Positions 4,346 through 23,394 of a DNA stretch of 64,000 nucleotides are shown here, piece by piece. Origin of the DNA: Paraphysoderma sedebokerense (Eukaryota > Blastocladiomycota > Physodermatomycetes > Physodermatales > Physodermataceae). The notes under the pieces are model-generated. The model ran no database searches. It was not told where the DNA came from and saw only the letters and a program-made list of their open reading frames with translations. Positions within the stretch are counted from its first letter, which is position 1; each line of letters opens with the position of its first letter. The stretch spans positions 682,001 to 746,000 of the forward strand of contig JAHLJZ010000001.1 of NCBI GenBank assembly GCA_025602915.1, given 5' to 3'. Both the position numbers and the translations under genes were made by a program.

Positions 4346-5732
4346 ATTACGCTGTTTTTAAGCCCTGCAACACTATCTTCACACTCTGGTCGAACTCAGA
4401 ATTAGTGTATAAAATCTCTGTCCTTTCGTCTAATTCTGTCAGTTCTGTTCTTTCATTGTATCCTTCTTTCCTGCACTTCCTTTGAAGCCTATCTTCCTTG
4501 TTCGCCACTTTTCAATACTTGTATTTAATATCAACAAACCATAAAAAACAGAATAGATTCGATGAGGTGTAAGCAAATTTGGAAGGAGTTGTGAGATATC
4601 ACCCGAAAGAGAACTAAAATATTCGAATGTTTATGCGGTGACGAGGAACAAAGAAAGAAAGAAAAATGTGTATATACAAATATCAATTCATAGACTAATC
4701 AAGGAATATAACAAAAATGATAACCGTCGGAAAATTTCTGAATACATATTACATTATTAGAGATGACAACAGTGAATTGTTTGGACGAAATTCCGTAAGA
4801 CTTTAGCGGACGCTGAGCGTCGTCAGTTTTTGTGTTCTCAAAAGGCTGGTAATGCAAGATTGATAACACCTTTGCAGATTTCATTATCCTACTTCGTCAA
4901 ATATTTAATTGACATTGCGCGTGTATATTGTCCTGCTATACTGAATCAATTTGAAAGAAGTTCAGTTTATGTTGATGGTAGGAAGTAAGTGAATGTTACT
5001 CCTTACAACTCTCCGCCTCATGGACTTACCTGCCCGGAAGCCGGGGCATACTGGCATGTTGCACTCCTTCCAACTCTTTGCCTGGACTAAAGCAATTGCC
5101 CGGAAGCCTGGACATACTAGATATTTATGGAAGAAAACACAACTTTCGGTATCCTCCAATTGCTCGCTCACCCATTTCAATCCCCAACGATGCACTCCTA
5201 TCCTCCATTGGACTCGGAACATTCCAGTACCACTGGTCCGGTCGGGCACCGTACACTTGTCCTGAAGCACGCGGCAACTCATAACAATAATTAGGCCCGG
5301 CTATTAATGCTACTTTCCAAAAATAAGTCAGACCAATAAATGGGAAATTCTTACAGAAATTCTGTATAGAAATTGTGGCGGGCATGTGAGCCCATTAGAG
5401 TCGCGAAATAATGTGATAATTGAGGAACCAAATGGACCGAGAACCTGACCGAGAAAATTCATGGACCAGGATAGAACGAAGTGGCAAACGAATACAACGG
5501 GACAACAACGAGAAACGCACGAATATTTAGGAATGTTGCAACCAAGTGTATTGTTTCGTTGTGATGGAGAATATTCGCGTCATATCGTTGTTGGTTACCA
5601 GCATAAAATCACGGTATTACCTCTTTCCGCGGTCAACGAGATTATATACATCACAGTCGCCTGCTTCACAACCACACAATTTCATAAAGTCGACAATTCT
5701 AACTGCTCTACTTCGCTGACAATTAACAGAAC
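4346..5732. other. Intergenic region with a short direct repeat
   Basis: About 1.4 kb lies between the kinase and the 7TM gene. The first part is AT-rich 3' flank. Around 4990-5290 the DNA is richer in G+C and carries two imperfect 24-nt copies 66 nt apart (5031-5054 and 5097-5120). Overlapping open frames on both strands there have no recognisable domains and look accidental. An in-frame ATG at 5461 starts a 97-residue frame that runs into the next gene in a different frame; I read this as 5' leader. Confidence 0.4.
5031..5120 (+). repeat. Two imperfect 24-nt direct repeats, 66-nt period
   Basis: Copies at 5031-5054 and 5097-5120 share TGCCCGGAAGCC followed by a diverged CATACT-containing half. 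They differ at three positions by eye. The period is a multiple of three. No flanking target duplication or terminal inverted repeat is visible. Confidence 0.6.
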
Positions 5733-6527
5733 ATGGCGGCTACAGCACAAGTAACTAATGTCGTTATCGACCTTTTAACTGGTTCCGGTATCACTTTATC
5801 CCTTCTCAACATCGCTGAAGCATTTCAATTATTCAAGAGTCACAAATCTACGCTATTCAAAGCAATCATTTTATCTAACCTCGGTGTTGTCGGCTCTTTG
5901 GCTACATTTTTACCAGTTATTCATGACCCCTCGGTCATCTCTTTCGGTTACCTAGCTTTCCATATTCTCGTTTGGTGGTTTTTGTATAACGCGAGTTACA
6001 ATTTTATTTTACTCTCCCGTTTAAAATTATTTTCCTTGAACAACCCAACTATTAAAAAAATTATGGCATTGTCTTTATGCCACATTACCTTTTGGATCAT
6101 TGTTTGCGGTTATTTCTTTTTCACCGCTTACGTCTCTCAAGATCCTGAAGATTTGAGAAGATACTCGATCATTGAACCTGTTCAAATCTCGTCTATTTTC
6201 GTGTTCGAAATGGCATTGACAGGATTTTATCTTTTCAAGACATACAAAAACATGGAACTCTTGAAAAAATCTTACTCGAGTGCAGCCGTTTGGAAACTCA
6301 TAATTAACTTGTCATTAATAGTCATTCTTGATATTGCGACCGTTTTATCCCAATTATTTTATAGTAACCATTTTCAGATTATGTTTAAGTATTGGGGTTA
6401 TTCAGTCAAAATTTATCTTCAATTCCATGCACTCAAAAATTTCAAGAAAATTAATACCTTGAATAGTGATCAAACTGCAAAAATGAAATCTGTGGGAAGC
6501 GATTCTCATGCCAAATCTATGGCTTGA
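5733..6527 (+). CDS. Seven-transmembrane-type orphan membrane protein
   Basis: This is an intronless 264-residue protein. It has about seven hydrophobic segments: near residues 15-30, 42-62, 68-95, 108-132, 148-170, 188-210 and 215-232. They are joined by short polar loops, and the tail is short, Lys/Ser-rich and presumably cytosolic. The topology resembles a small receptor or a fungal integral membrane protein, but I recognise no family motif (no DRY, no NPxxY). The start is the first ATG of the frame and lies directly after a pyrimidine-poor leader. Codon use and base composition look like the neighbours. Its function is unknown; calling it a receptor would be speculation. Confidence 0.7.
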   Translation: MAATAQVTNVVIDLLTGSGITLSLLNIAEAFQLFKSHKSTLFKAIILSNLGVVGSLATFLPVIHDPSVISFGYLAFHILVWWFLYNASYNFILLSRLKLFSLNNPTIKKIMALSLCHITFWIIVCGYFFFTAYVSQDPEDLRRYSIIEPVQISSIFVFEMALTGFYLFKTYKNMELLKKSYSSAAVWKLIINLSLIVILDIATVLSQLFYSNHFQIMFKYWGYSVKIYLQFHALKNFKKINTLNSDQTAKMKSVGSDSHAKSMA

Positions 6528-16606: not shown

Positions 16607-18389
16607 ATGACAGACTACGTTATCAAACCCGAAAATACGACCCCAACTTTGGACACTAGCCAATGGCCACTCCTCTTGAAGAATTACGATAAACTTCATG
16701 TCAGAACCGGTCACTATACTCCGATCCCATCCGGTAATACTCCCCATAAGCGTCCATTGCAAGAATACATCAGGTACGTTTGGGCTTTGAATAAATATAG
16801 ACGATGATTTCGTAGATCATGGAATATTGACTCTGTAACCCAGGTACGGTGTTATCAATCTCGACAAACCGGCCAATCCATCCTCCCACGAAGTTGTCGC
16901 TTGGATCAGACGCATTTTAAGAGTCGAAAAAACCGGTCATTCCGGAACTTTAGATCCCAAAGTCACCGGATGTCTGATTGTCTGCATTGACAGAGCAACC
17001 CGTCTTGTAAAGTCCCAACAGGGTGCCGGAAAAGAATACGTTGCTGTTCTTCGATTACACGATGCCATTGAATCGGAAAAGAAACTTTCCCAGGTTAGTG
17101 GATGTGATGTATGCACTAAAAAGGATTATTGGATTGACATTTCTCCCTGTTGTAGGCTATTGAAACTCTGACTGGGTCACTTTTCCAACGTCCACCATTG
17201 ATTTCTGCTGTCAAACGTCAACTCCGTATCCGTACCATATACGAATCCAAACTCATTGAGTTCGATAATGATCGCCATTTGGCTGTTTTCTGGGTTAGCT
17301 GTGAAGCTGGTACATATATTCGAACCCTTTGTGTCCATTTAGGTTTATTGTTAGGTGTTGGAGGTCACATGCAAGAACTTCGTCGTGTTCGATCCGGTGC
17401 ATTATCTGAAAGTGTAAGTTTTTTTTTTGGAAGCGCTTCGTCTTGTTCATGGTTATTTTGAACAATTATTGATCGGAATCTATGTTTACAGGACGAGATG
17501 GTCACGATGCACGACGTATTGGACGCACAATGGCTTTATGACCACACTAAAGATGAATCTTATCTTCGACGGGCTATCATGCCCCTTGAAACTCTTCTTG
17601 TCTCGTACAAACGTGTTGTGGTGAAAGATTCCGCTGTCAATGCCATCTGCTACGGTGCTAAACTCATGATTCCTGGATTATTACGATATGAATCCGGTAT
17701 TGAAGTCAATGACGAAGTCGTTCTCATGACCACCAAAGGTGAAGCTATCGCGTTAGCTATTGCACAGATGACAACCGCTGTTATGTCAACATGTGACCAC
17801 GGTGTCGTTGCGAAGATTAAACGAGTTATCATGGAAAGAGATACCTATCCCAGACGCTGGGGATTGGGCCCGAAAGCCCAAGAAAAGAAGAAAATGGTCA
17901 AAGACGGTTTACTCGATAAATTTGGCCGACCCACTGAAACAACTCCAAAACAATGGACTTCGTCTTATGTTGATTACGCTAGGTAAGTTTAATATTATTT
18001 CTCAGTTGATTCAACATTATGCTCACAAAGTATCGGAAACACGTTTTAGAACCGACGTTCCTAATGCTGAAGCCGCGGTTAAAGGTAGTCAAGACTCCTC
18101 AAACATAGCGCCTGCCACTCAAAACGGTGAAGCTGCCGTCGAAGCCGGAAAGAAACGAAAAGCTGAAGAGATCGAATCATCGGCTTCATCATCTGATGAA
18201 CAAGAAGAAGCTGCTCCGGAAAGCCCAGCCAAGGTCGAAGAAAAGACACCGAAGAAGGAAAAGAAATCAAAGTCATCAAAGAAGGACAAATCGGAAAAGA
18301 AAGAAAAGAAAGAAAAGAAAGAAAAGAAGGAAAAGAAGGAGAAGTCAGAGAAGAAAGATAAAAAGAAGAAGAAGACTAGCGTTGAGTAG
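16607..18389 (+). CDS. CBF5: H/ACA snoRNP pseudouridine synthase (dyskerin)
   Basis: Five exons (16607-16773, 16844-17093, 17156-17413, 17492-17982, 18050-18389) encode the catalytic subunit of H/ACA snoRNPs, which pseudouridylates rRNA and stabilises telomerase-type RNAs. The N-terminal DKCLD segment is followed by the TruB-type core. That core contains [17 protein letters not shown] and the catalytic Asp in [11 protein letters not shown], plus [16 protein letters not shown] and [15 protein letters not shown]. The PUA domain has IMPLETLL...[18 protein letters not shown]. The final exon is a Ser/Glu then Lys/Glu repeat tail (about 18240-18375), the usual nucleolar-targeting tail of this family. 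Length and order are typical. It is convergent with the selenoprotein-H gene. Confidence 0.97.
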
Positions 18390-18834
18390 GGTATCAACTT
18401 ATTTGCATAATTCCTGTACTATTTACATTCATGTATTTTTTAAGTGTTCTTTGATATTGTAGCATTAAATTTTAATCATACTTAATGAAGAATTAAAATT
18501 CATCCTTCATACCCGTTGGTCTATCAGCTGGAATAACACATTAATTTATTATATCATTTCAGCATGATCGCCAGGAAACCTGAATTTAAATCAATGCACT
18601 ACAGAGTACTTTAAACAAGATTACTGACTTTGCAAGTAACATGTTGTAAGAAACACTGAAATAAAAGGATTCAACACTTGATTCACCGAGAATCTGTCCG
18701 TCATGATCCTTCCCGCTTGTCTGATCAAACTCGCAATTACATTTTTACGAGGAGATCGTCACTTAAATTGGAGAAAAATGAAGACAGGGACAGGATCCCT
18801 GGATGAAATCTGTAGTGGACTAAAGATACCATAA
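18390..18834. other. Convergent 3' UTR region of CBF5 and SELENOH
   Basis: This 445-bp gap is shared by two converging genes. On the minus strand an AATAAA poly(A) signal lies at 18550-18545, which would give SELENOH a 3' UTR of about 290 nt. Two hairpin-forming stretches lie in that UTR: 18762-18721 (GTGA near its start, TGAT near its end) and 18711-18665 (a 6-bp outer stem around ATGA and TTGA). Neither fits the canonical SECIS layout, which needs unpaired AA at a fixed distance from the quartet. Confidence 0.45.
18545..18550 (-). terminator. Poly(A) signal AATAAA, SELENOH
   Basis: A canonical AATAAA on the minus strand lies about 285 nt after the SELENOH stop codon. Confidence 0.5.
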
Positions 18835-19605
18835 TTATTCTTGCTTTAAATGACCGGCAAGCAAGGACAGAAATTCATCGGTATCAGGAAATTTCAACTT
18901 TCGGGGAGGACCTTTTTTTACACCAGTCCAAATAAGGGTTTCTACAGTATGCGGAAGTAGAGTTAGAAGAGCGATCTTAGGATGCAGAGGGGAAATAAGA
19001 CAAAGATGAATGGACAGACCATTTCCATTCACCCGAAGTGTAACTTCAAACGATTTGGAGCGAGGCTTTGAAAGATTTACAATTGCCTTCTCGGCAGAAA
19101 AAGAGGGATAGATATCAGAGACGGCCTATTGCGCCAGTGAATAGTGTCAGTTTTATAAGGATACAGACAATAAAGACTAAAAGAATGCAATGTACCTTGA
19201 TTAAGCGATTAGCAGCCGTCTTATACACTGATCAGGACTGTATGAAAAGGCATATAAGGACAAAGAAATGAAACAAAAAAAAAGGGTTGGACAAGAGGTC
19301 AGCGCCAAAGTACCCTAGTATTCATAATGATTTAGATGCCGTACATTACATCTTTCAATGATCAGTTCAAAATCATGGCTGCTGGCGGGAGCGGGTGAGT
19401 TCCGTGCCTCAGTGGAAGCTTCAGAGGTCTCGACAGTGACAGATGGGGGAGTACCGGGAGAACTGGCAGAATCTTTAGTCTTTTTGGCCTTGACAGTCTT
19501 CTTGGTTGTCGCTTTCTTTGGGGCGGTCCTTTGACGCTTAGCGGGAGGTGCAGATTCCGTATAAACGTCCTCGGCTACCGGTCTGCTTCGAGTTTTCGGG
19601 GGCAT
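18835..19605 (-). CDS. SELENOH: Selenoprotein H, with an in-frame TGA read as selenocysteine
   Basis: Four exons (19605-19345, 19237-19196, 19125-19020, 18941-18835) give 171 residues. The N-terminus is Lys/Pro-rich (APKKATTKKTVKAKK), like the nuclear AT-hook-type start of animal SELENOH. The thioredoxin-like core follows as FELIIERC-N-S-U-SVYKTAANRL. The Cys codon ends exon 1 region and the TGA lies at 19234-19232. Then come VNLSKPRSKSFEVTL and TLIWTGVKKGPPRKLKFP, the strongest family signature. The spacing Cys-x-x-Sec-x-Val-Tyr is identical to vertebrate SELENOH (C-T-S-U-R-V-Y). Introns have GT/AG ends; the last has a CTAAC branch-like motif. Avoiding the TGA needs donor 19348 and acceptor at 19231-19230, which deletes the redox motif. 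TGA is a normal stop in neighbouring genes. SELENOH is a nucleolar/nuclear redox protein. The SECIS is unresolved. Confidence 0.82.
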
Positions 19606-19781: not shown

Positions 19782-22700
19782 ATGAGAACCAGACGAAAAA
19801 GAACAGATATCGACTACTCCGATTATGCTGATTTGAGTGACCCGGGAGATTCCCCGTCTCTGGCATCCGATATCACGGATGCAAGCGAACAGTCTTCCAG
19901 GTCTTCCAGATACTCGAAACGACTCAGGTTGGCCGACGACAATGCCGAGTCCGACCAAGAAGTGGATGATTCAAGGCCCGGTACTCCCGTTAAGATCGTT
20001 ATTGAAGATGAAATGGAGCCCTTGCCTGAGGATGAAGATGGTACGTTTATGTCGGATAAATAAGAATTATCATTAGCAAAACAAAACAGATAATTATGGA
20101 ATAGACTAAATTTCCATTTCGCGAGCCTCCTTACTCTTTGGGGCAGCTATGGTCCCATTGATATCGCCTATTACATCAACTATTGACATTTATGTTGTCG
20201 TATCTTTTCATCGTTTCAACTTACAGAACGATACTTGCGTACAACTTCTAAAATCGCATATATTTCTTATTTCTGCGACATCTTCCGATTTCTGCTTGAA
20301 TTGCAACGGTTTACGGCGGAGGAAGTCGAAAAGGAGTTGCTCAGGGTTGAAGAATCCATCCTAATCGCGGATATTTTCATCAAACTCCTTGATCAATTTC
20401 CAAAGAATAAGATAGTGAGATACGTCAGGTTCGTCCGATTTATCGGGCAACGGCTTCCCCTAAAAGGCTACTGACAATATTCTCTTCGGTACTCTTAATC
20501 TGTGTCGATGTCACTATTCTCACTCATTGCACTCCGACATCCGTACCAGTTTATCCAATTGGGAAGATGTCCTGCGGTATCACTGTTCTAGGCGTAATAT
20601 CGACTTGTTCCCTCCCGAAATGCGATATTTCGACTTAGATATCCAAGCAAAGGTATGCCAATGAACTAAATGTTTGATGAGATCTTAGCATGGTCTAACG
20701 AAGTATCCCATTATCGAAAAAGGTTGAACTGATTGTCATGGTTTGCGACTGGGTATTTGAATATAAATCGGATTACATTTTTGAGTTAAATATGGATCCC
20801 AATATTCTGGTATGTTGTGTTAATGGATTTAAGTACATCACTGGTCTAAATATCGATTGGTTCCAGCGGGTCGTACCTTTGGGTCAAGATAACGAAGACA
20901 CCAATTATTGGTATTTCAATGGTATTAGTGATTTCTTCGGTATCGCTTACTTCGGTGTTAGCTGGTAATTTACTGTCTCTGATATGTAGACACTCGTTTA
21001 TACATCGAACGGACTATGGTTCCACCGAATGATGAAGTGACCTCCCAGGAGTCTGAATGGCGATTGGTTAGTTTTCCTCTAGCTGTACATGATTGGATTG
21101 AAAATTAATTTTATATGTTAAGCTCTGTTCAACCTCATCGGAGTGGAAGCAGATTCTGGAGAGATTAGAAACGTCGCGACACAAGTCAGATAAGAAGCTT
21201 CTCAAAAACTTCCTTCCTGTGGCAGAAGATGTGATTTCAAAGCTAGAGGTAATATAGGTTGTGCATGTGAAATGACAGGAGCAAGTTTTTAATCAATGAT
21301 TTTCTAATACTAACAGAGAGTCGAGAAAGACTTGGCAAAAAAAGAATATTTTGCCCTGCTACCCAAGAAAAGGTCCTCCAGGATCGCTGAAAAGGTAATT
21401 TAAGGTTGTCAGCTTCTGTTACGTTCATTAGTTAACCGTTTGTTTGGCTGTATAGGAAGAGGAACGTCGACACGAAGAATTGAGGCGACGCGAAGAGGAG
21501 GTCGCGGCCATCAAATTGGCGGAAGAAAGAAAGAAGGAGGAGGAAGAACGCAGACGACAAGAATTGGAGGAAAGACGCCAGAGGGTCTGTTCGTTGCCTT
21601 TGATATTTGTGCCTTTACGTTTGTCTGATTTTTTAACAGGAGGAAGTTGCACGAGCCGAGAGGGAGCGTTTGGAGAAAGAAGCGGAAGAAGTTAGAAAAG
21701 CGGTTAGCTGTCATTTCTTTGTGCACGAAAGCTGAATATTTTCATACAGCTAACATGTTTGTCTAGGAACGCAAGTTTAATTATGAATTGAAGGAGTTAC
21801 GTCGATCGGATCCAGAATGGTGGCAAAGCTTATCGACGAAGCAGTTGGTTGATAATCACGGCCGCGTCATCGATTATACAAATGGAAAATGGAAATATGT
21901 AAAATTAGAGAATCTTCGGTTTGCCAAGAATATGTCCGAGCTAGAAATGGATATGGCGTGGAAGCACCAGTGTCGAGAAATTATTCAATCATTGAAGGCT
22001 CATCCAAGCAGCTAGTGCGTTTGTTCCTTCTTCGTATAGCAGCCGTTGACGCAGTGGGACTAATTCTTTATAGCCCATTTCACGAACCCGTCGATGCTGA
22101 CGCGCTAGGAATTCCTGAATATCACGATATTATCACCGATCCGATGGACTTGTCTACGATTTACCGAAATCTTATGTTAGATGATTACAAATTGCTAGAA
22201 GACTTCCATTCTCACATGGTGCTTATGTTTCGCAATGCCCACACCTTCAATCATCCGAAAAGTGAAATCGTGTCTATGACAAAAGATTGCGAATGGATTT
22301 ACATCCAAAAGCTGGCAGAGTTGGATCTATTAGATTTGTCTTGTATCGAAGCAAAAGCGGGACGAAATAGAAGGAAGGTTGTCCCTGATCTTTCTCAAAT
22401 TTTAGCGAATGAGGCACAGGACGATGAAGACGGTTTTGGAGCTGATGAAGATTACGAAGAAGCGATTGATATCACTGGAATGGAAGACGACACGGATGCC
22501 GAAATTTCGGAAGATGACAGTGACAGTGATTACGATTCTGATGAAGAGAGAAAAGGCTCAAAGAAATCTTCAAAACGGTCGCGGGCGTCATCAACTTCTT
22601 CAAGGCCTAGTAAACGTCAAAACATTCACACAGAACCCGTCATCGATGCTAAACCCTTGGTTACTACTGACCGCCTACTCGTCCCTCAGCAAACTACCAT

Positions 22701-23394
22701 TCCTTATATTCCTTACTTCTCACAACTTCGTCCATACGCACCGTCTTTCGCTCATACTAGCGGTCATCGAGCAGGCCATTACATGCCTGCAAATCAGGTG
22801 TTTTCACAACCGCCTCCATCCTATCCAAGATTGAACCAGCGACAGTCGGACACTTATAATCGTTATAACGTTCCTCCCCCGATGAAGCCTGTTGCTTCCG
22901 CCCCATATCCTTCATCGGCACCTCAGTCTATTCCTCGGTACAGTTATCCACCTCTTCCATCTCAGCCCCAGACTTCCCAATCCTACCGATCAGAATACCT
23001 CAGTGCACAAAGGCCGCTCTACTTCCAAGCACCTCATCCTTCCAACCTCCGAACCCTGTCAGGTACTCCGAACAATCCACCTCCGGCAGCTTACTTTCCG
23101 CATTACTCACGACCAGTCATGGCCAGACCACAACCACCGCCAATATCAAATACACAACTTCCTGTGCCGCAATTTCCGTCGACAAACGGGTTCCCTACTC
23201 AATTGCCCAGTCTTCCACCTCCTTCAAATTTAGTCAGTCATCCAATGTTACCCCGGGCATCTCAACCACCTCCGCAATATTTACCCCCTACTTCAATGTT
23301 GATGACCCAAATACCACCCCCTACATCGTCCGTTGAGTTTACCACAGCTCGCCTACCACCGCCTGTGGTAGAAGCGTCCCGAAACGGATCATGA
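19782..23394 (+). CDS. CECR2-like DDT/bromodomain chromatin protein
   Basis: This is a multi-exon gene whose first exons are 19782-20040, 20227-20428 and 20550-20652. The N-terminus is acidic. It is followed by a DDT-like region (YISYFCDIFRFLLELQRFTAEEVEKEL) and a segment matching CECR2 (VPLGQDNEDTNYWYFNGTRLY). A charged Glu/Arg coiled coil (about 21460-21760) comes next, then a bromodomain entered by splicing from AHPSS to YPFHEPVD. The bromodomain shows PEYHDIITDPMDLSTIY and the acetyl-lysine Asn in FRNAHTFN. The tail is acidic, basic and then Pro-rich (about 22500-23394). In animals CECR2 is the regulatory partner of ISWI ATPases in the CERF remodeller. Domain order and the PLGxDNxxxxYWYF block support orthology, while the remodelling role is inferred. 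Confidence 0.82.

Follow-up and report, generated by a model that had tools for sequence, protein, structure and literature searches.

Fungi were long assumed to live without selenocysteine (Sec). The accessible part of a 2021 survey states that they lack it (PMC8559351), and partial texts of other articles give nine Sec-using fungal species, assigned to Chytridiomycota, Zoopagomycota and Mucoromycota (PMC11378755; the same count in PMC10778597). The closest described system is that of the Harpellales, to which SelenoH is common alongside Sec machinery according to the available excerpt of PMC12611240 (citing Mariotti et al., 2019), so that SelenoH in fungi is, as a general phenomenon, not new. 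The organism studied here, Paraphysoderma sedebokerense, is a blastoclad that infects Haematococcus (excerpt of PMC11797010). As in the Harpellales excerpt, a fungal SelenoH and Sec machinery occur together in one genome, but as a member of the Blastocladiomycota it stands outside the three Sec-user groups named in those partial texts, and it additionally carries UGA in an SPS gene and in an animal-type thioredoxin reductase gene, a comparison in which the Harpellales are known by description only. No Sec report for Blastocladiomycota is contained in the accessible parts of PMC8559351 or PMC10386755, nor, as judged by titles and the beginnings of abstracts, among the matches listed in the literature searched, which leaves aside most subscription journals; a search of the same scope returned no earlier report of Sec in Paraphysoderma. 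The locus would place SELENOH with Sec in a fungal phylum for which we found no earlier report, which does not prove priority. We read it as a four-exon SELENOH gene whose UGA codon 89 would be decoded as selenocysteine, an interpretation to which we give a probability of about 0.92.

The assembly amounts to 27.3 Mb in 195 contigs, and the window is the whole stretch of 64,000 nucleotides that was analysed (positions 682001-746000 of contig C1). The SELENOH-family gene occupies 19605-18835 on its minus strand, encodes a product of 171 residues and was found as a single copy in a DNA search of the assembly (Table 1). One TGA lies in its reading frame, in the context ...LIIERCNS-TGA-SVYKTAANRLIK...; the initial annotation had placed it at the Sec position of C-N-S-TGA-S-V-Y, between GT/AG introns that keep the frame, and this was found to be so. 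The three-exon structure proposed there was correct in its first two exons and in introns 1 and 2, whereas its last exon (19125-18835) hides a further intron at 19019-18942. Removal of this third intron turns VNGNGLSIHL...TVETLIWTG into VNGNETLIWTG, the protein then reading ...VTLRVNGNETLIWTGVKKGPPRKLKFP... as in the deposited model and in most of the 28 homologs read, which have no insertion there. Tail to tail with SELENOH lies a TruB/PUA gene (window 17198-18389, + strand), which we take to be Cbf5/dyskerin-like; a lysine-rich frame without Pfam match (17793-18389, +) was taken as its tail, which ends ~445 bases from the SELENOH stop. A bromodomain gene (PF00439, 59.8 bits) is located at 21889-23394 on the + strand.

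Table 1. Features of the SELENOH locus (window coordinates) and of two further genes with in-frame TGA
Feature	Position	Strand	Remarks
SELENOH exon 1	19345..19605	-	basic N-terminal part and first redox Cys (...LIIERCN); GT donor 19344; deposited model agrees up to IIER
Intron 1	19238..19344	-	107 nt, GT..AG, predicted frame-keeping join; deposited model uses other donor and acceptor
SELENOH exon 2	19196..19237	-	carries in-frame TGA (S-TGA-SVYKTAANRLIK); TGA column compared over 80 homologs
TGA codon	19232..19234	-	proposed Sec, residue 89/171, CxxU
Intron 2	19126..19195	-	70 nt, GT..AG; deposited model reads NRLIKAVSDIYP across
SELENOH exon 3	19020..19125	-	reading frame
Intron 3	18942..19019	-	78 nt, GT..AG, in frame, stop-free; deposited model reads VNGNETLIWTG across
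SELENOH exon 4	18835..18941	-	family signature WTGVKKGPPRKLKFP and TAA stop
Predicted SELENOH stem-loop	19119..19221	-	10-nt spacer after UGA, 8-bp stem, spliced mRNA
Candidate SELENOH SECIS	18710..18775	-	3'UTR; GUGAC 18762-18758, AGAC 18722-18719, AAA in apical loop
SPS gene	L020 3357-5372 (C94), copy on C4		in-frame TGA at L020 3444 (LKG-TGA-GCK)
Thioredoxin reductase TGA	L049 4708 = C12:145207		protein reads ...SGKDATVSGC-TGA-G

Membership in the SELENOH family is indicated by a protein search in which the product, with Cys set at the TGA residue, retrieved 80 of 222 candidate proteins at E<=1e-3, many of them named Selenoprotein H, the best match from another species being Calcarisporiella (3.4e-20). 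The downstream signature, already put forward as a mark of the family, is of the WTGxKKGPPRKLKFP type and recurs identically or nearly so in the 28 homologs read. With Cys typed at the TGA, the SelW/T/H profile TIGR02174 reaches 33.4 bits against a cut-off of 34.2 (E 4.2e-8) and the Rdx family PF10262 21.5 bits against 22.6 (E 2.7e-4), and a PDB search for relatives gave nothing meaningful (best E 0.39). SELENOH proteins are described as nuclear or nucleolar, with a DNA-binding basic tail. The Paraphysoderma product resembles its animal counterpart in the C-x-x-U spacing followed by VY, in the signature and in a basic, here Lys-rich, N-terminal tail; it differs in that this tail is longer, with ~80 residues ahead of the fold, and in that its SECIS is only a candidate. 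The U of animal SELENOH is missing from the database rows. By analogy with the animal protein, on which the assignment of the fold and of any nuclear role depends, the product would be a small redox protein of the thioredoxin fold, with C-x-x-U at its centre and a basic tail.

The alignment that the initial annotation had proposed as a check was made by aligning each of the 80 homologs with a query that carried X in place of the TGA residue. Cys in a CxxC motif is found at this column in seven homologs (Calcarisporiella and six unnamed ones, source lgn) and Trp in a CxSW motif in 11 (unnamed; sources lgn, jgi and ena), the latter, we infer, being TGA read as Trp. Another 16, all mammal entries, lack exactly the residue at this column (CxS-RVY), where human SELENOH has its U. 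The other 46 are without the motif at the column: 27, including the deposited model discussed below, have a longer gap, and in 19 the column holds a residue that is not part of the motif (Trp in P0024, various residues in the other 18); many of the 46 may be models that skip or mis-splice it. Where the motif is visible, the TGA thus coincides with Cys, Trp or exactly one missing residue, and the C-x-x-U-x-V-Y spacing claimed earlier is seen as CNS-TGA-SVY. The Calcarisporiella thermophila homolog (P0002) shares the signature region and reads ERCSSCTSYK at the same place, differing in having Cys where Paraphysoderma has TGA.

The closest database match is the deposited model of this very gene, the 166-aa hypothetical protein BKA69DRAFT_1120918 of P. 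sedebokerense (P0001, 96% identity), which differs from the four-exon protein at the first junction only, where it reads ...IIERLYKTAAN.... Donor 19349 and exon start 19227 form a second frame-keeping GT/AG option, which yields ...IIERLYK... and excises CNS-TGA-SV, i.e., the Cys of the redox motif together with the TGA. It had been foreseen that a gene caller would mis-splice the locus, and the NCBI model does shift donor and acceptor such that the TGA is lost. Gene callers disallow in-frame TGA codons and tend toward splices that avoid them. A SELENOH model of Endogone sp. FLAS-F59071 (P0010) reads ILERWSKANN, much like BKA69DRAFT_1120918 and without a CxxC/CxxU motif; it may be another mis-spliced Sec gene.

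It is nevertheless conceivable that the 19349/19227 splice is the one in use and that the gene is a Sec-free descendant of SELENOH, with Cys and TGA removed and the TGA intronic. The option keeps the frame, has GT/AG ends and equals the deposited model, but it would deprive the protein of its redox motif although the genome retains Sec machinery, and the homologs that show this region retain C-x-x-(C or presumed TGA). Given in addition the general preference of gene callers for splices around a TGA, and the Endogone model being likewise devoid of the motif, we consider such a descendant improbable. Slightly better, though still unlikely, are the chances of two isoforms, the choice of splice deciding whether a Sec enzyme or a form without the motif is made, e.g., under selenium shortage; the joint shift of donor and acceptor leaves the frame intact, yet the alternative splice may merely be the gene caller's way round the stop. 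The splice that includes the UGA is probably the one used, and BKA69DRAFT_1120918 would then be a specific case of a wrongly annotated protein in a public proteome.

A reassignment of TGA to an ordinary amino acid in the P. sedebokerense genome can practically be dismissed. Nothing was found in its favor, and, as already argued in the initial annotation, TGA serves as a stop in the window, where it ends five of the 14 stop-free frames of >=250 codons (five others end in TAA and four in TAG); moreover, the one UCA-anticodon tRNA that we met, in a search directed at tRNA-Sec, is tRNA-Sec itself. That the TGA arose by recent mutation in a pseudogene, or through an error of sequencing, is scarcely more credible. 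As the DNA search returned the locus only once, there is no second allele for comparison, but the remaining frame is intact and conserved, the TGA falls exactly on the Sec column, and the same TGA pattern recurs in two unrelated genes, those of SPS and thioredoxin reductase. Contamination is argued against by the G+C content, which is 40-42% in the window as well as in 11 measured regions carrying Sec-related and other genes, without sign of a foreign contig. Decoding of the SELENOH UGA as selenocysteine, by comparison, has independent support elsewhere in this genome, namely from the machinery and the two further UGA-containing genes.

Absence of all Sec machinery from the genome had been named beforehand as the outcome that would speak against selenocysteine; the opposite was found, with tRNA-Sec(UCA), SecS, PSTK, EFSec and SPS all present. 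The tRNA-Sec at C2:223324-223409 scores 72.5 bits (E 6.5e-14), over the cut-off, and is called tRNA-SeC(tca), with anticodon TCA, by ARAGORN, a weaker second match being tRNA-Ser(cga). Since the tRNA-Sec model has matches in all 14 control genomes (over the cut-off in five of them), it is the score and the anticodon that carry weight. For EFSec, domain III is over the curated cut-off, which no other protein among PSTK, SecS, SPS and EFSec exceeds, and is matched in none of the 14 controls; several exons also resemble the typed human EEFSEC (best E 1.4e-73). PSTK is represented by a single exon (31.1 bits); the stretch also contains VLDDNFYYPSMR and CLQRNNQR and matches a typed human piece at E 1e-10. 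For SecS, three contigs contribute 23 exon matches, of which the best scores 100.9 bits and none exceeds the whole-protein cut-off; they are spread over profile positions 2-444 and leave 57-76 and 335-360 uncovered. Of these contigs (C63, C72 and C153), two share an identical stretch of 9.1 kb, and the third resembles them at 94% along 5.2 kb and at 87% along another 0.6 kb; judged by this likeness, they are assembly duplicates or haplotypes. SPS exons are located on C4 and C94; since the model TIGR00476 finds matches in 14 of 14 controls, we identify them by their likeness to the typed human SPS2 (E 2.5e-37).

For SBP2, the typed human domain used as a genome query gave no match, in a search with no positive control. 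Among 11 L7Ae-family exon matches, ten read as ordinary ribosomal or snoRNP genes, and the eleventh (C12:339765-339881) reads KSKKRYFTGLKEIAKLLKRRKNRVKAVIM; together with its presumed next exon, it has SBP2 as its only PDB match (E 0.055) and might be an SBP2 exon, for which it is a weak candidate. The next open frame after it contains, by eye, ankyrin-like sequence.

Two more genes carry UGA at Sec sites. The SPS gene starts with MKPKIKKFVPKEHGLAPSFRLTNYSDLKG-TGA-GCK and continues after one intron with VPQEELLRLIAAI; on its sequence, we identify it as SPS2 with the UGA at the known Sec position. Its copies on C94 and C4 are identical from L020 3328 to 5569, coding region included, and 25 alignment columns differ between 5570 and 5807, seven of them at 5728-5760, within or just before the SECIS-like element described below. 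In the thioredoxin reductase gene, a 78-nt GT..AG intron interrupts the codon of the final Gly, which is followed directly by TAA; the protein would hence end in GCUG like the animal enzyme. The gene was found with TIGR01438, and because this model is unspecific (matches in 14 of 14 controls) and no exon passes its threshold, the identification rests on typed human TXNRD1, to which three matches have 58, 65 and 72% identity and two further ones, running across introns, 46 and 34%. Both genes likely encode selenoproteins. Sec is not universal among the candidates, since Cys is present in the GPx genes of contigs C33 and C14 as well as in a SelW-like gene on C40; a weak GPx match on C17 (16.7 bits) was left out of account.

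Ordinary eukaryotic Sec insertion is the most likely mechanism. Ser-tRNA would be phosphorylated by PSTK and then converted by SecS using selenophosphate from SPS, itself likely a selenoprotein; the resulting tRNA-Sec(UCA), delivered by EFSec, would decode codon 89 of SELENOH. Read-through of this UGA probably inserts Sec, and the RNA signal directing it might be a SECIS in the 3'UTR, a stem-loop close to the UGA, or both. The 2019 study by Mariotti and colleagues is reported to state that a consensus SECIS is missing from most fungal selenoproteins, which have other RNA structures. Our search for fungal selenoproteins together with SECIS gave no match in the searchable literature, which leaves aside most subscription journals.

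A SECIS-like element lies in the thioredoxin reductase 3'UTR (L049 4943-5003), where the match to Rfam SECIS_1 scores 26.1 bits at E 0.0096, short of the gathering score of 35, and the sequence offers AUGAU, an 11-bp helix, UAAA in the loop and UGAU. An element with GUGAU, an 11-bp helix, AAAAA and UGAA lies in the SPS 3'UTR on C94; in its C4 copy, which begins with UUGAU, the 3' strand differs at three places without loss of any of the 11 pairs. The SPS element is a descriptor match, with no match in Rfam. The strict descriptor (TGA, 10-13 bp with <=1 mismatch, AA or CC, GA) was applied to both strands of the window and to those of ten loci, including the SPS locus on C4, 311,016 bases in all, and found seven matches, three of which reach <= -5 kcal/mol, and all three are the C4 SPS element. 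A genome-wide search with SECIS_1, in which 133 of 518 candidates were scored, gave nothing at E<=10, a null that is not counted as absence because the local scan did find a SECIS_1 match in the same genome.

In the SELENOH 3'UTR, Rfam gave no SECIS match even at E<=10 and the strict descriptor none even with two mismatches. Under rules loosened after the element had already been seen, we regard the hairpin GUGAC-GAUC-UC-CUCGUAA-AAAUGUAA-UUGCGAG-UUU-GAUC-AGAC as a candidate SECIS only. Its predicted helix II consists of two parts of 4+7 bp (18757-18723), and a short helix I is possible (18775-18771 with 18714-18710). At -9.7 kcal/mol it has no equal at <= -8 in 124,000 bases, the rest of the window, under the relaxed descriptor; under a looser rule, 30 places reach -9 in 369,974 bases, i.e., about 0.03-0.04 per 448 nt by chance, and folding of this region yields a z-score of -0.64. 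These scans are rough, since the relaxed descriptor misses the SPS element that the strict one finds and the looser rule ranks another hairpin of the C94 SPS 3'UTR first (-13.5, against -10.7 for the SPS element). Folding of 18740-18640 gave z +0.53, and that stretch was discarded.

Stem-loops are predicted downstream of the UGA in all three genes. The SELENOH stem pairs a 5' arm at 19221-19214 with a 3' arm composed of base 19196 and 19125-19119, and because the latter spans the exon junction, it can form only once intron 2 has been removed. In SPS a 10-nt spacer after the UGA is followed by 8 bp, and in thioredoxin reductase a 12-bp stem begins 7 nt past the UGA; in each of the three genes the stem is completed only beyond an intron that follows the UGA, and the structure would be present only after splicing. 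Over the 45 nt after the UGA, which in SELENOH fold with -12.0 kcal/mol, 5, 10 and 0 of 400 dinucleotide shuffles are as stable for SELENOH, SPS and thioredoxin reductase, respectively (z-scores -2.4, -2.5 and -7.2), and so are 31 (SELENOH) and 63 (SPS) of 400 random synonymous recodings, a weak signal. At 60 nt the counts are 21, 1 and 0 of 400 for the shuffles, and 46 (SELENOH) and 16 (SPS) of 400 for the synonymous recodings; at 75 nt these become 73, 2 and 0 and, for recodings, 121 and 74. Of 1540 control windows of 45 nt taken from 14 long frames in the window, 61 are as stable as the SELENOH stretch, 15 as that of SPS and 0 as that of thioredoxin reductase. The post-UGA stretch of SELENOH is the most stable 45-nt window among 156 in its CDS, tied with the next three overlapping ones, and 60-nt windows in its N-terminal part and 3'UTR are more stable than the post-UGA window of that size. 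The modelled signal thus appears strong in thioredoxin reductase, fair in SPS and weak in SELENOH, fading with window size. The stem-loop shortly 3' of the Sec UGA of SELENON is a selenocysteine redefinition element, and the likeness lies in a stem-loop soon after a Sec UGA; unlike that element, the stems described here are predicted folds in three genes of one species, and as a Sec signal they are suggestive.

A more speculative extension, which we hold to be rather doubtful, is that Blastocladiomycota retain an old fungal Sec system in transition, in which each selenoprotein mRNA bears a second signal, a stem-loop brought by splicing to ~7-10 nt after the UGA, and that SELENOH, with a degenerate SECIS in its 3'UTR, relies mostly on this local signal. 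If this were true, the species would show loss of SECIS without loss of selenocysteine. With its SECIS_1-like element and its strong predicted stem-loop after the UGA, thioredoxin reductase means that one genome could serve to separate the two kinds of signal.

Selenocysteine in Blastocladiomycota would add a zoosporic phylum to the three groups named in the accessible text of PMC11378755, and such a distribution would fit vertical inheritance followed by repeated loss. Paraphysoderma would represent a fungal parasite of green algae that carries SELENOH together with the Sec tRNA and enzymes.
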